A DNA stretch of 21,695 bases from a virus: positions 1-21,695 of IMG/VR virus record IMGVR_UViG_3300025168_000786; one strand, written 5' to 3'. Positions 12,533-19,026 of the stretch are shown here, piece by piece. The position numbers and the translations under genes are program-made. The notes under the pieces were generated by a model. It made no database searches, was not told where the DNA came from, and saw only the letters and a program-made list of their open reading frames with translations. Position 1 is the stretch's first letter. Each line of letters starts with the position of its first letter.

Positions 12533-12610
12533 CGTTCCCGAATAATGCTCATCGGTGATTTGGGCCTCGAGGGACCATCACCATACTTGCGGGGGGACTC
12601 CCGTGTTAAA

Positions 12611-12702
12611 CGAAAACGCGCTGGGGAGAGAGATTCGTTGATGGTATTAACGAAGTCTTACGCAAATATATGGCTTCGCCCGTAGGGAGAGAGAGAGAGA
12701 AG
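12611..12702. repeat. GA/AGTCTTA three-part element, copy 1
   Basis: Plus-strand order: GAAAACGCGCTGGGGAGAG box (to 12632), 21-nt spacer, AGTCTTACGCAAA box (from 12654), about 24-nt spacer, GGGAGAGAGAGAG box (from 12685). The last box and the hairpin behind it form a 58-bp block (12685-12742) identical to 13360-13417. Short arms CGAAG and CTTCG flank the AGTCTTA box. Confidence 0.85.
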
Positions 12703-12706
12703 GAAG

Positions 12707-12738
12707 GCCCCCGACCCCGCCGAAGCGGGGAAGGGGGC
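12707..12738 (-). terminator. Nested UUCG hairpin behind the 126-aa gene
   Basis: Minus-strand RNA: GCCCCC-TT-CCCCGC-TTCG-GCGGGG-TC-GGGGGC. Inner 6-bp UUCG hairpin and outer 6-bp stem. It lies about 37 nt after the stop at 12775 and is part of the 58-bp block shared with the next cassette. Confidence 0.65.
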
Positions 12739-12774
12739 GGCTATCATCGTTGAGTGGACGGTTGTTCTGACTAC

Positions 12775-13222: not shown

Positions 13223-13286
13223 GCCAGCGGAGCGAAGCCAATCTCGGGCTGTTTGCCCCAGTCGCCGGGGGACACCCGTATATACC

Positions 13287-13374
13287 GAAAATGCGCTGGG
13301 GAGAGAGATGTTGGCATTGCATTAACTAAGTCTTACGCAAAACAATGCTTCCGCTGGGTGGGAGAGAGAGAGAG
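13287..13374. repeat. GA/AGTCTTA three-part element, copy 2
   Basis: CTGGGGAGAGAG at 13296-13307, 21-nt spacer, AGTCTTACGCAAAA from 13329, 24-nt spacer after AGTCTTA, GGGAGAGAGAGAG from 13360. Perfect 6-bp inverted arms GCATTG (13314-13319) and CAATGC (13343-13348) flank the AGTCTTA box. Spacing is the same as in copy 1, but the spacer bases differ. Confidence 0.88.
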
Positions 13375-13381
13375 AAGGAAG

Positions 13382-13413
13382 GCCCCCGACCCCGCCGAAG
13401 CGGGGAAGGGGGC
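13382..13413 (-). terminator. Nested UUCG hairpin behind the 124-aa gene
   Basis: Identical to the hairpin at 12707-12738 (GCCCCC outer stem, CCCCGC-TTCG-GCGGGG inner hairpin on the minus strand). It is separated from the stop at 13454 by a stretch with GAGCCTACGAGCC that also occurs behind the genes ending at 11786 and 12248. Confidence 0.65.
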
Positions 13414-13453
13414 GGCTCGTAGGCTCAAGGCCCGCTGTGGTTATGCTCGCTAC

Positions 13454-13878: not shown

Positions 13879-14004
13879 ATCATAGGTGGGATTTCCGCAT
13901 TTTTTGCCCTATTTTGAGCCGCCGAGCGCCCGCCGAGCATTTGCCGGACGAATCGGACCTCGAGGTACTGTCAGCCTCCTTGCCGGGGGATGCCCGTATA
14001 AATT

Positions 14005-14091
14005 GAAAATGCGCTGGGGAGAGAGTTCGACCCAGTATAGTAAGTAAGTCTTACGCAAAATACTGCCGTTGGCGAGGGAGAGAGAGAGAGA
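14005..14091. repeat. GA/AGTCTTA three-part element, copy 3
   Basis: GAAAATGCG, then CTGGGGAGAGAG at 14014-14025, 21-nt spacer, AGTCTTACGCAAAA from 14047, 22-nt spacer, GGGAGAGAGAGAG from 14076. Perfect 6-bp arms CAGTAT (14033-14038) and ATACTG (14060-14065) flank the AGTCTTA box; the arm sequence is wholly different from copy 2 while pairing is kept. Confidence 0.88.
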
Positions 14092-14158: not shown

Positions 14159-14755
14159 TCAGTGCTGTCGGTTCGCCGCTGATTTCCTCGCTTCGTTGAT
14201 AGCGTGATTCACTGGGTCACATTGGGGACAGGCTGTCACTTTACACAATTGCATCTCAAGGTACATGGTGCGGAAGGTGTTGGTGATGTCAGCGCCGTTC
14301 TCATCAAGGAATTGCTCAAGGGTAGCAAGTGTCTCAACGACTGACTCTTGAACCATGTCGTTGCGCTGTCGGTATTCGGGGCGTTCGGGGTTGGTTCTCT
14401 CAAGTCGTGGTTGAACTTCGGTGGTCCACTTGAATGAAGTCCCAACATGGGACCATTTTTGGGTGCTGATGTTGTACGACTTGGCACTCTTTTGGGTTGT
14501 TGTCTTTCGGACGAATGAGCCGAATCCGGTATGGACTGCGGGGCGAAGCATGGCGTACTTTGGCTGTCGGTCAAACTTGACGGTTCGGGGTCGGTATTGG
14601 CCGTTTGTTGCTCCAAGTAGTTCCGTGGGTAGGTTGTTCACTTGCTGGGACAGTGCGTCATATTGGGCTTGACACTTAGCGATGAACTCACCTCCGTCAT
14701 CGGCTTGGTTCATCTTGTCGGTTAGGCTGAGGGTTGGGAATTGGTGTCCGTCCAT
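14159..14755 (-). CDS. Hypothetical protein with C-terminal CxxC, probably leaderless (198 aa)
   Basis: The start was set at MDGHQFPTLS. The TATA box at 14776-14784 is about 24 nt upstream, so the transcript would begin at or next to this ATG and there is no ribosome site; a Met two codons earlier is the alternative. Longer readings to 15001 would cross the promoter and a GA element and look unlike the rest. The protein is polar with a central NISTQKWSHVGTSFKWTTEV beta-like stretch, Arg-rich middle, an amphipathic helix (VVETLATLEQFLDENG) and VTACPQCDPVNHAI near the C-terminus, perhaps half of a zinc site. Function unknown. It is the last minus-strand gene before the divergent region. Confidence 0.65.
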   Translation of the reverse strand: MDGHQFPTLSLTDKMNQADDGGEFIAKCQAQYDALSQQVNNLPTELLGATNGQYRPRTVKFDRQPKYAMLRPAVHTGFGSFVRKTTTQKSAKSYNISTQKWSHVGTSFKWTTEVQPRLERTNPERPEYRQRNDMVQESVVETLATLEQFLDENGADITNTFRTMYLEMQLCKVTACPQCDPVNHAINEARKSAANRQH

Positions 14756-14775
14756 GCCCATCCCAGTGCATGGTT

Positions 14776-14784
14776 GTATATCAA
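14776..14784 (-). promoter_or_regulatory. TATA element for the 198-aa gene
   Basis: Minus strand reads TTGATATAC. Distance to the ATG at 14755 is about 24 nt, which predicts a leaderless transcript. Confidence 0.6.
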
Positions 14785-14854
14785 GCCAGCGATGTTTAGG
14801 TTTTGGTTGGATTTGCCGCCAGTGTTGCCGCCGTGCTTGCGTCATTAGAAAATG

Positions 14855-14942
14855 AAAATGCGCTGGGGAGAGAGTGCTTGGCGTTGTCTTATACAATAGT
14901 CTTAGGTACTTCTCATTTTCCACGAGGGGCCTTGGGAGAGAG
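14855..14942. repeat. GA/AGTCTTA three-part element, copy 4 (diverged)
   Basis: GAAAATGCG, CTGGGGAGAGAG to 14874, 23-nt spacer, AGTCTTA at 14898-14904 (lacking the CGCAAA extension), longer 29-nt spacer, GGGAGAGAG at 14934-14942. A small TTGT/ACAA inverted repeat precedes the AGTCTTA box. Confidence 0.75.
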
Positions 14943-15037
14943 ATTTTCAATACCGTGAAAGTCCAAATGTCAGCGCCTCCGCCATGCTTTGGCCACATCA
15001 TGAACGCTTATGAATGTGTATGTTCCAACGGCCTAAT

Positions 15038-15187
15038 CGCTGTACTGCGAGGCCGCCGACCCCTCTCAACCGCCGAATGTTCATTTTTGGGCTGTTTTGG
15101 GGCATTTGGCCGATTGTCCGCCCTTGATTTTCTTGTGAGCCGACCTACCTATCATGATAGGGTCAGGCTCTCAGTACAGCGTTTTTT
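15038..15187 (+). ncRNA. Putative 150-nt RNA closed by a 10-bp stem and ending in T6
   Basis: CGCTGTACTG at 15038-15047 pairs perfectly with CAGTACAGCG at 15172-15181, and six T follow at once (15182-15187), giving a closing stem plus terminator-like T-tract on the plus strand. GAG/CTC and GCC/GGC next to the stem may extend it. Inside are CCTAT-CATG-ATAGG (15148-15161) and pyrimidine-rich loops. A plus-strand frame through here has no ribosome site and no protein-like character. Size and shape recall small regulatory or 6S-like RNAs, but no family is recognised. Confidence 0.5.
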
Positions 15188-15199
15188 GGGCCGACAGGT

Positions 15200-16160
15200 T
15201 TAAGGTGTGGTGGTCTATGTTCTAATTGCTTGGGAAGTACCGACCCGAGCCGAAGAAGTATAGGCCCTTAGCAATGGCAACCGGCGGCGGTTGTTAGTAG
15301 GGGACACGAGTCCATGCGACTCATCGTGGCGGCTATTCCAGCGGAAAATGCCCTTGCGAACAACCAAACGGAACCTACCAAAGTTCACACTCGACAAAGC
15401 AGTCGGTCAAAGACAGTCCCTCGAATGGGGCTCGGGCATCCATGAAGATGCCTTGCTGAGATGTGACGGAGGTCGATAACTCACAGACATTCGCAAAGTA
15501 CGGATAATCACCGGAAATGCAAGCGGGAGCGGCGTAAATAACAAAGCCTAATCATCCATCGTAAAGACGGAGCCCCACTCTCACAATGGCACAACCGTGC
15601 CGGGAACACGAGAATGGCTCGAGACAAACCGGCGATTGGGAGTGACTGATTCGCAGTCGCACCTACCCAAAAGCCACCTTGTCCCTCGAGACTACACACA
15701 GGTGTAGTGATACGCAATGCAGTGAGTCGGGCCTGAAACAGGGACTGAGCCTCGAAAGAGGCACCGGGGTAGGATGTGCATAGAGTGTTGAACACTCGAT
15801 GTCGAAGCGGGGTCAAAGTCCGTGGGTCTTAGGCTAAGTTGCACATAGCGGATGAGACAAGGTTCTCAGTCGAGCCAAAACATCGGTCAGCGAGTCTCAT
15901 CTGCGAACATTCGTTCTTTCACATCACCTGTGAAGATGCTGTGGGGGGGAGTAGTCGATGGCCTTGAGCCAACACCGTTGCGCCAAAGTACCGGTAGGCG
16001 TTGATACCCCCCCACTTTTCCTACTCACCAGCAGGGTTTGCTACAAACAACCCGAGGCTTGTACCCTCACCCTGCATCATACGGACACTGACCGACCAAA
16101 GACAGGCTCGAGCCCCGATTGCTGGGGCAACTATCGAGAGTCCCTAAAGGCAACAGGACA
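15200..16160 (+). ncRNA. Putative giant structured RNA (about 0.95 kb)
   Basis: This gene-free stretch is packed with perfect local hairpins: CAACCG/CGGTTG (15278-15293), CAC-GAGTC/GACTC-..GTG (15305-15328), GGCATC/GATGCC (15435-15452), GGCAC-AACC-GTGCC (15588-15601), ACTG/CAGT (15642-15662), CTACAC-ACAG-GTGTAG (15692-15707), GCCTC-GAAA-GAGGC with a GNRA loop (15749-15762), GAGTG/CACTC (15783-15797), TTCACA/TGTGAA (15918-15934) and a nested CTCGA-GCCCC/GGGGC-..TCGAG (16107-16138). Longer-range stems are GCGGATGAGAC (15848) with GTCTCATCTGC (15894; one G-U pair) and GTGGGGGGG (15941) with CCCCCCCAC (16007). A TTTAAG TATA-like site lies at about 15199. Size and density recall large ornate phage RNAs such as GOLLD and ROOL; it could instead be a huge leader of the downstream gene. 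No rRNA, tRNA, RNase P or tmRNA hallmark was seen. Confidence 0.68.
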
Positions 16161-16182
16161 ACCCCAAACTGGAGGAAAAAAT

Positions 16183-19026
16183 ATGCAAAACGAAACAATG
16201 ATGAACAACGCAGACGGATTCGGGTTCGTATTGGCAATGGGCTGGGTACTTGTACTCATGGCCGCTACCATACTATCCGCTACTGTCCAGCGAAAGAACG
16301 AACGAAAGCAGTACGCCCAAGTAGGCGCTACCAAGATGTACGGCATTGGTCTCGAAATCGAGGCCATCCGCTCCGCACATGCTGAAAACGCACCCAACAT
16401 GAAGATAGCCCATTGGCTCAATCTTCACAAAGCAAGGGACGCACCGGGAGCATTCAAACGCTTCCTGTCCTTTGTACAGGGTCAAAATGCCAAGGCACGA
16501 CGAACTCGTGCTTCACGGAGGACTTATCTCCGCTTGGCGAAGGCACAGAAGGAGCAGACCACACACACGCACCAGTCCTCGGACTGGATGCAAGGTCGCA
16601 CTACTGGCGGTGTCACCCGTGTCACCACGGATGGCTCCCTCAGCAGTGGCGGATTTGAGGTGGTTTCACCACCTCTTGCCCCGGAAGAAGTGACCGCATG
16701 GATTCTCGAGACAGTCGAGCCATTGCGAACCATTGCCACCATCAACCGCACGACAGGGCTCCACGCACATGTCGCACTAAGAAAGCCCGACGAATCGTTT
16801 GGGTACGACGGTGTGATGAGTGATACGGAAGCCAAGTCAATCGGTGGACGAGTCGCCTACGCTTGGTCATACTTTTGGCATGACTTGAAGATGATTTTCC
16901 CGGCTTCCCGCTGGGAAAACCAGTACGCACAGGCATCGAATGTACACTCCGCTCATAACCATCCGAGCGAGTCGAAATTCACCGCCAGTACGCACATTCG
17001 ACGAGAATACAACCACAGTATCGACGAGTACGACATGGTTGAGAAAACCGGTGACGACCACTACCACTACATCTTTGACTGGCAAGCCGGTCAAGGACGC
17101 TACCAACACCTCAACCTCAAGTCACTGTTCAGCCGTGGCTTTGGTACAATCGAGTTCCGGGCACATCAAGGCACGCTTAACCCAATGAAGATTAACCGTT
17201 GGGTCGAGTTCTGCACACGGTTTGTGGCCGCTTGTGAAGACGAAACCAACTACATCGGTTTCTTCGACATGGACGACCTACCACAAACCCGAGATGCGCT
17301 ATGGGCCTTCATGGACCTTGAGTCAGACCACCACTTGCGTGACTACTACGAAAAGCGAGCACTGGTACTCCACGGAGTGCCAACAGTGGCTTGCATGACT
17401 TGTGGTAGCACTGGCTGTGTACACGGAGAATGCGAAGTGTACATCGACAGGGCCTCGGCCCTCAGTCAGTTCAACGACATCGGGGAATCCAACCGCATCT
17501 GCTTGGACACTACACGAGTCCATTGCACAGACGAAGCGTGCGAAGGGTCATTTTCCGTGAGGAATCTCACTACGACTCTCGAGGACTCAGTGCTACGACA
17601 GTATGTAGCAGTCCAAGAAGAGTACAACTACTTGGACGACCTACCGGACCTCGAGTGTCCGTCGTGTGTTTATTGCGGCGGAACAGAACTGACTATGGGA
17701 AGCCATCGTCACACCTCGACCTACAACATGGGTGCGCTACCAGTGTTTATGCTCGGCCTCATGGTCACAGCACCTCTTGTGGGTGCAGTGGCACTACTGG
17801 TCGGGTGTGGCATTGGCCTCATCCACTCGGGCTCAGTCAAAGGCAACAACGCTAAGAAGGCATCAACACGCCTCTTCAGTGGACTGTCCAGCCGTGGCAA
17901 CCAAGCGGCTGGTGCGGCGTGGTTCAACACCACCGATGCCGAAGTGTACTACCAAAAGTCACCAATCAGCAGTGTGGCTCTTGCCCCAAAGTTGGTCAAG
18001 AAGTGGTTCAACAAACACACCACTTGGATGATGATGCACACACGGTATGCGACGCACGGTAAGAACACCTCCGACAACGCACACCCTCACTTCGGCCCCA
18101 AAGCCGAGGTGACTCTTGTGCACAACGGTGTGGTCCACAACTACGACGACGCTTGGAAAGCACTCGAGGCCAAACAAACCGGCCCAGTCGACAGCCAAGC
18201 AGTGGCCGCATGCCTTGAAGCAGGTGGCATCGAGAAGGTGGTCGAACTATGTGAGGGTTCAATGTCCCTCATTTGGTCCGACGCCCGTGACCCAGCAGGT
18301 ACACTCAAGTTCTGGACCAACGGCGGCAACCCTCTTCATGCGGGTCGCCTTGACTCCGAAACAGGTATCATCGTGGTCGCCTCGACTGAGAAGCATCTGC
18401 ACGACGCCTACGGCAAGCGCCTCTTCAACGATTGGGCTTGTGCCATCGGTAAGGAGTACACCATCTCCCCAGACGGTGTGCTAACCAACCGACACATCGA
18501 CGGCAGTGCAGAAACAGCAGGTATCTCGTACGACTGGCGCACATACGGCCAGTGGAACCAAACGACATACAAGGCAACGACCCTCAAGGCAACCGGCGAC
18601 TCGGACACATGTGCCATTGACAATGTGAATGTGGCATCAATGCCCCTCGAGATTTACGAGTGGGACAACCTGTCACTCAACGACGCAGTGGACAACGCAT
18701 ACAACGAGATGCTCGGTACCAATTGGAACATGAAGAAGGCGGCGTACTACCAGTCATGGCCAGCAGACCACATATACCACGGTTTCGATGGCTTGTCACA
18801 CATGGGCATCCGTCCAGACGGGACCAAGTACGACCTCCCACTCCGGTGGGCTGACGGCAAGGACATGTCACCAGACATTTGCTCCGACACAATGGTCATG
18901 GTCCTCACGGGCCGCTTCGACCCCGACAACGACACCGAAGTGGTGCAAGTCGAGGTGGTTGACCCATTCGACAACGAGTGGACTGACATTGTTGCCGGAA
19001 CAAACGGCGACTGGTACCACTGGTAA
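16183..19026 (+). CDS. Membrane amidoligase - class-II glutamine amidotransferase fusion (947 aa)
   Basis: The start was set at MQNETMMNNA (GGAGG seven bases upstream); a 75-codon upstream extension lies in the RNA-like region. Domains: TM segment 12-35; amidoligase-2 (COOH-NH2 ligase, glutamine-synthetase-like fold) about 53-370, with YGIGLEIE, GGFEVVSPPL, TGLHAHV (191-197) and FGTIEFRAHQGTL (320-332); Cys-rich zinc-type segment 404-498 (CMTCG, CPSCVYCGG); hydrophobic segment 517-541; class-II glutamine amidotransferase from Cys542 (CGIGLIHSG, SSRGNQAAG, HTRYATHG with Arg621, HNG at 647-649, VDSQAV with Asp670); a C-terminal region of about 170 residues that I do not recognise. The amidotransferase should release ammonia from glutamine and the ATP-dependent ligase should amidate a carboxylate. 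Normally the nucleophile Cys must be N-terminal; here it follows a hydrophobic segment, so cleavage is predicted. Substrate unknown. Confidence 0.85.
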   Translation: MQNETMMNNADGFGFVLAMGWVLVLMAATILSATVQRKNERKQYAQVGATKMYGIGLEIEAIRSAHAENAPNMKIAHWLNLHKARDAPGAFKRFLSFVQGQNAKARRTRASRRTYLRLAKAQKEQTTHTHQSSDWMQGRTTGGVTRVTTDGSLSSGGFEVVSPPLAPEEVTAWILETVEPLRTIATINRTTGLHAHVALRKPDESFGYDGVMSDTEAKSIGGRVAYAWSYFWHDLKMIFPASRWENQYAQASNVHSAHNHPSESKFTASTHIRREYNHSIDEYDMVEKTGDDHYHYIFDWQAGQGRYQHLNLKSLFSRGFGTIEFRAHQGTLNPMKINRWVEFCTRFVAACEDETNYIGFFDMDDLPQTRDALWAFMDLESDHHLRDYYEKRALVLHGVPTVACMTCGSTGCVHGECEVYIDRASALSQFNDIGESNRICLDTTRVHCTDEACEGSFSVRNLTTTLEDSVLRQYVAVQEEYNYLDDLPDLECPSCVYCGGTELTMGSHRHTSTYNMGALPVFMLGLMVTAPLVGAVALLVGCGIGLIHSGSVKGNNAKKASTRLFSGLSSRGNQAAGAAWFNTTDAEVYYQKSPISSVALAPKLVKKWFNKHTTWMMMHTRYATHGKNTSDNAHPHFGPKAEVTLVHNGVVHNYDDAWKALEAKQTGPVDSQAVAACLEAGGIEKVVELCEGSMSLIWSDARDPAGTLKFWTNGGNPLHAGRLDSETGIIVVASTEKHLHDAYGKRLFNDWACAIGKEYTISPDGVLTNRHIDGSAETAGISYDWRTYGQWNQTTYKATTLKATGDSDTCAIDNVNVASMPLEIYEWDNLSLNDAVDNAYNEMLGTNWNMKKAAYYQSWPADHIYHGFDGLSHMGIRPDGTKYDLPLRWADGKDMSPDICSDTMVMVLTGRFDPDNDTEVVQVEVVDPFDNEWTDIVAGTNGDWYHW

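Follow-up and report, generated by a model that had tools for sequence, protein, structure and literature searches.

The window analysed here is a 21.7 kb IMG/VR record of a tailed virus (21,695 nt at full length). Terminase, portal and an exonuclease-like gene are among the genes that point leftward. Between the start of the last leftward gene (15001) and that of an amidoligase gene (16183) lie about 1.18 kb without a credible gene, and the features of the locus are collected in Table 1. The amidoligase fusion protein shows apparent transmembrane segments near its N-terminus and around residue 530.

Table 1. Features at and around the predicted structured RNA (window coordinates).
Feature	Position	Strand	Basis
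Amidoligase (PF12224) - class II glutamine amidotransferase (PF13522) fusion, apparent transmembrane segments	16183..19026	+	domain matches
Shine-Dalgarno sequence GGAGG	16171..16175	+	precedes amidoligase gene
Promoter/operator-like divergent region: inverted repeat AATCGCTGTACTGCGAG (15035-15051)/CTCTCAGTACAGCGTTT (15168-15184), TTTTTGGGC repeats	15035..15184	.	
Perfect palindrome CCTATCATGATAGG, operator-like	15148..15161	.	
Predicted structured RNA (about 970 nt), ends approximate	15205..16176	+	folding, covariation, relatives
Outer helix of M1	15212-15222/15255-15266	+	
Element M1: UUG-CUUGGG...CCCGAG-CCGAAG, helix flanked by UG and CCGAAG	15226..15255	+	
Hairpin, C-G to G-C compensatory change in L075	15275..15296	+	
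Hairpin GAGTC/GACTC; GTGTC/GACAC in L075 (A-U to U-A)	15308..15322	+	
Helix 15579-15582/15610-15613 around hairpin 15588-15601; C-G to U-A in L075	15579..15613	+	
Stem domain CTCGAGAC... with ...CCCTCGA, one compensatory change	15619..15689	+	
Inner hairpin GACTGATTCGCAGTC of the 15619-15689 stem domain	15644-15658	+	
11-bp stem GCGGATGAGAC/GTCTCATCTGC	15848..15904	+	
3′ domain closed by GTGGGGGGG/CCCCCCCAC	15941..16015	+	about 92% identical over 75 nt to L077
Predicted stem GCAGGGT/ACCCTGC	16031..16075	+	
Predicted stem CTCGAGCCCC...GGGGC...TCGAG	16107..16138	+	
Element M2: hairpin GTCC-CTAAAGGCAACA-GGAC, just before Shine-Dalgarno	16140..16159	+	

Relatives were drawn from IMG/VR. Scanning viral contigs for the terminase yielded 73 loci, 16 of them with the amidoligase, and a scan with an amidoligase alignment added a few more. 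Five relatives have a 1.0–1.2 kb counterpart in the corresponding position, immediately ahead of the same amidoligase/GATase gene: L075 (also L002), the nearest to the window, L076 (L008), L077 (L006), L078 (L010) and L079 (L005). In the distant loci L080–L085 and L090, roughly 300–550 nt separate the 5′ element M1 from the gene. Pattern scans for the RNA motifs in viral contigs returned only known loci and chance matches (L156, L158, L159 and L189 among the latter), genome contigs scanned with the amidoligase alignment contained only weak amidoligase domains, and blastn against phages gave no match. Two further features of the leftward side were recorded. The gene at 14159–15001 (minus strand) matched nothing in Pfam or PHROG and has relatives only in L002 and, partly, L006. 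Three copies of a 110–154-nt intergenic repeat (12589–12742, 13264–13417 and 13982–14091; 75–83% alike) sit between small leftward genes, are present also in L002 and L004, and might serve as repeated leaders or promoters.

The first-pass annotation had proposed a giant ornate RNA at 15200–16160 from the presence of at least ten perfect hairpins. The count was confirmed: this interval contains 13 perfect Watson-Crick hairpins (at least 5 bp, loop of 3–10 nt), against 5.75 ± 2.3 in its dinucleotide shuffles, only one of 300 shuffles reaching 13. The hairpin count alone is nevertheless not decisive, since coding stretches of the window reach 12–13 (961-nt stretches across the window have 7.9 on average), and folding energy is the better evidence for structure. 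The folding z-score was −3.66 on the plus strand and −1.30 on the minus strand with 20 shuffles, and −3.61 and −1.85 in a repeat with 40. The plus strand was the better folded one in all six members, with z-scores of −2.6 to −5.7 versus −1.0 to −3.5. The proposed limits proved nearly exact, the sequence upstream of about 15200 being promoter/operator-like. Other details were less robust. GNRA-type loops cap only two stems on the plus strand, and GNRA and UNCG loop counts show overall no strand bias. As to the two long-range stems originally described, the long-range inverted repeats of the region are 11–14 nt long; the core pairs of 15423–15433/15570–15580 are kept in L075 (one GC to UG), 15427–15437/16106–16116 is not kept and a 12-nt deletion removes 15697–15710/15919–15932. 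An internal duplication (three direct repeats spaced 488–490 nt apart) rose above shuffles in the window and was rejected as chance, because no such alignment was obtained in L075, which is 89% identical.

Covariation was evaluated by folding one sequence alone and scoring the other on that structure, with a null in which substitutions were permuted among same-letter columns within 150-nt blocks. For the window and L075, which are near neighbours, the fold of the window alone gave 7 compensatory pairs versus 0.9 ± 0.9 in the null and 16 broken pairs versus 35.7, neither value being reached in 300 permutations. Helices with a compensatory change numbered 7 (null 0.6 ± 1.0), and RNAalifold on the same pair gave 268 pairs, 7 of them changed on both sides. 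The stem at 15848–15904 carries two adjacent compensatory changes, from GATGAGAC/GTCTCATC in the window to GATATGAC/GTCATATC in L075. Other pairs of close members behaved similarly, with 39 compensatory pairs versus 17.4 ± 3.8 and 93 broken versus 140 for L078/L079, and 41 compensatory pairs versus 26.6 ± 4.8 for L076/L077. Coding controls taken from amidoligase and terminase segments of the window and L075 genomes stayed at the null. Global covariation was not above the null in the distant pairs L080/L081 and L087/L088, and L093/L094 showed little; these distant loci were therefore rejected as relatives over the full length. One-sided changes gave about as many A-C as G-U mismatches and point to neither strand. 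The close members number only six, too few for a full consensus structure. Most hairpins are kept in the relatives. The first-pass annotation had named lack of covariation and of hairpin conservation as grounds for rejection; covariation and kept hairpins were both found, and they support its main proposal of a large structured RNA beside the amidoligase gene. We consider it very probable that 15205–16176 (plus strand) is a real structured RNA.

Could the folding simply reflect the composition of an unrecognised or decayed protein gene? Chance open frames reach 102 aa, no longer ORF lying wholly inside the region, and upstream of the amidoligase its frame is free of stops from 15958 onwards; the start of this gene was placed at 16183 on account of its good Shine-Dalgarno sequence. 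However, eleven indels separate the window from L075, and as most are not multiples of three, frames are broken between the two. Of five ORFs checked in L075, two lacked an internal stop and only the 62-aa one (TTG start) kept its length and frame; no frame over 62 codons was conserved there. These observations, together with the lack of covariation in real coding controls, make a protein gene very improbable, and uphold the initial description of the stretch as gene-free. A conserved reading frame, the third ground for rejection named in the first-pass annotation, was not found at any substantial length.

The 5′ end of the predicted RNA is marked by M1. With a strict script, M1 was found with helices of 3–7 bp in 11 of 27 upstream regions versus about 0.9 expected (background rate 0.033 per 1.5 kb), an enrichment that is descriptive, because the motif was picked with these sequences in view and several of them are closely related. 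Two matches in L095, beyond these 11, are likely due to chance. The pair adjoining CCGAAG is C-G in the window, L075, L078–L081 and L084, and U-A in L076, L082 and L090; the L077 copy fits with a longer, bulged helix. MAFFT misaligned the M1 copies. At the other end, L076–L079 have a hairpin with the loop TAGGCA in the place of M2. In L085, the last 90 nt or so before the Shine-Dalgarno sequence contain a terminator-like arrangement in which a T run comes after the stem GACTGAG/CTCAGTC; relatives keep the hairpin as GATTGAG/CTCAATC, mostly without the T run.

Upstream of the RNA, L076–L079 possess sequence similar to the 15035–15184 region. The palindrome CCTATCATGATAGG is probably the operator of a regulator. 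Its half CCTATCATGA turns up again close to the amidoligase of other loci, either alone or in tandem, the tandem halves lying 19–20 nt apart upstream of the gene in L080–L082, L084 and L085. Sequence conservation also points to a putative promoter at 15035–15205, where the TATA-like candidate is weak. A sigma-70 promoter scan, a type of scan unsuited to archaea, stayed at chance level. The same inverted repeats and palindrome at the upstream edge would suit an element with hairpins that function at the DNA level (a replication origin, a packaging site or a strand-switch site), and the region does lie where transcription diverges, AT skew changes sign and cumulative GC skew reaches its peak. 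Against this, there are hundreds of predicted pairs over about 970 nt that are not AT-rich, one strand folds better in six of six members, and the M1 helix is capped on the plus strand by GCAA or GCGA (GNRA) in L080, L081, L082 and L090. We therefore regard a DNA element as improbable.

What the RNA does is a separate matter. In every locus seen, it lies directly upstream of the Shine-Dalgarno sequence of one gene, a position whose weight is limited, as collinear genomes could by themselves explain synteny with the amidoligase. We favour a leader because the RNA follows a conserved operator-like region and precedes the amidoligase Shine-Dalgarno sequence, and because no terminator-like site was found on the plus strand in the window. 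Transcription would start in the operator-bearing promoter region (15035–15205) and run into the amidoligase/GATase message; the RNA would then most likely act as a leader setting the timing or amount of membrane amidoligase/GATase made, by means of the 5′ UG-helix-CCGAAG element and of the hairpin that adjoins the ribosome-binding site on its upstream side. Processing may also release the RNA from this transcript to persist in stable form. Taken as a whole, the statement that a conserved structured RNA of about 970 nt (plus strand) acts as a giant 5′ leader of the amidoligase gene appears to us somewhat probable.

Leaders are usually far shorter than 1 kb, and a size and complexity far beyond most of them are what one would expect of a stand-alone giant ornate RNA, similar to GOLLD or ROOL, whose promoter serves the amidoligase by read-through. 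Conservation, which also speaks for a structured RNA as such, is in line with this reading, being higher than in the neighbouring gene: between the window and L075, the structured region is 89–90% identical, versus 83% for the first 1000 nt of the amidoligase and 71% for the next 1000 nt, and the L077 amidoligase is only about 40% identical to that of the window while the 75-nt 3′ domain is about 92% identical. Modules differ between clades and the 5′ element is constant. There is also the precedent of GOLLD and ROOL, phage-encoded RNAs that form cages (PMC12286853). On the other hand, no terminator of its own was found in the window, and the RNA is always placed directly before the same gene's Shine-Dalgarno sequence in the loci seen and has no tRNAs nearby, unlike GOLLD and ROOL. 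We hold a stand-alone RNA to be a possible but minority reading.

The setting in an archaeal virus, which the first-pass annotation had considered likely, is retained at that strength on the basis of magrovirus-like genes and a polymerase alignment. A 62.7 kb relative encodes a family B DNA polymerase, an RFC-like clamp loader, an ERCC4 nuclease and a pyrimidine dimer glycosylase, so that this genome and the window together hold a magrovirus-like set of family B DNA polymerase, ERCC4 nuclease, DNA glycosylase and tailed-virus head genes. The published magrovirus gene list contains comparable replication and repair genes, and DNA ligase as well (PMC10160649). The GlmS-type gene of magrovirus surveys could correspond to the GATase domain of the amidoligase fusion (16183–19026). 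By coverage times identity, the best matches of the polymerase of the 62.7 kb relative are haloarchaeal tailed viruses; most of its 718 matches are cyanophages. The largest relatives are records of 55–63 kb, marked linear, and described Magrovirales genomes are larger, at 90–110 kbp (PMC12999244). The window probably derives from a tailed virus of a marine archaeon, and Poseidoniales are the likely hosts.

The RNA belongs to no Rfam 15 family at a detectable level. Rfam 15 gave no match on the whole window at E≤1, and at E≤10 the interval 15000–16200 gave three minus-strand matches far below gathering score, taken as chance. Membership in GOLLD, ROOL, HEARO, group I or II introns or RNase P, families brought forward as candidates at the outset, was not borne out by any credible match to the Rfam 15 models; riboswitches and other Rfam 15 families likewise lacked a credible match in the region. 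The GOLLD model (RF02032) had no match, nor had those of ROOL (RF03087) and OLE (RF01071); since the searches with the latter two models detected no control genome, it is mainly cmscan that supports the ROOL and OLE negatives. A literature search thin on subscription journals turned up no RNA of this kind from an archaeal virus. For a large structured RNA in a virus of marine archaea, we found neither an Rfam family nor a paper. Large structured RNAs are rare, and the functions of phage GOLLD and ROOL are unknown. We suggest, as a speculative and rather unlikely extension, that viruses of marine archaea harbour a further class of giant ornate non-coding RNA, which is either freed from the amidoligase message or made independently of it and which, during infection, assembles as an RNA-only structure or binds host machinery; if true, viruses of archaea would share the way of life of GOLLD and ROOL. 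Functional tests could start from the range of sizes, from the shared UG-helix-CCGAAG element and from the constant association with a single enzyme.

GOLLD and ROOL are thought to be abundant in infection, possibly as RNA-only oligomers, and tRNA genes are often, not always, found near GOLLD. Like GOLLD, the RNA described here is very large and densely structured, comes from a virus of prokaryotes and combines a variable with a conserved part. It differs in that no tRNA genes were found near it, in lying directly upstream of a protein gene and in its probably archaeal host; moreover, the conserved half of GOLLD is the 3′ one (PMC12286853), whereas here it is the 5′ end that carries the conserved element. 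ROOL, itself phage-encoded, is similarly large, ornate and of unknown function, but its model has 574 positions versus about 970–1200 nt here, and the present RNA is not near tRNAs. OLE is another large ornate RNA, treated as bacterial in PMC12286853. Long structured 5′ leaders and riboswitches offer a different likeness, that of a structured RNA directly before a Shine-Dalgarno sequence and a metabolic-type gene; compared with these, the RNA of the window is several times longer, matches no ligand-binding family and has no visible terminator/antiterminator pair.
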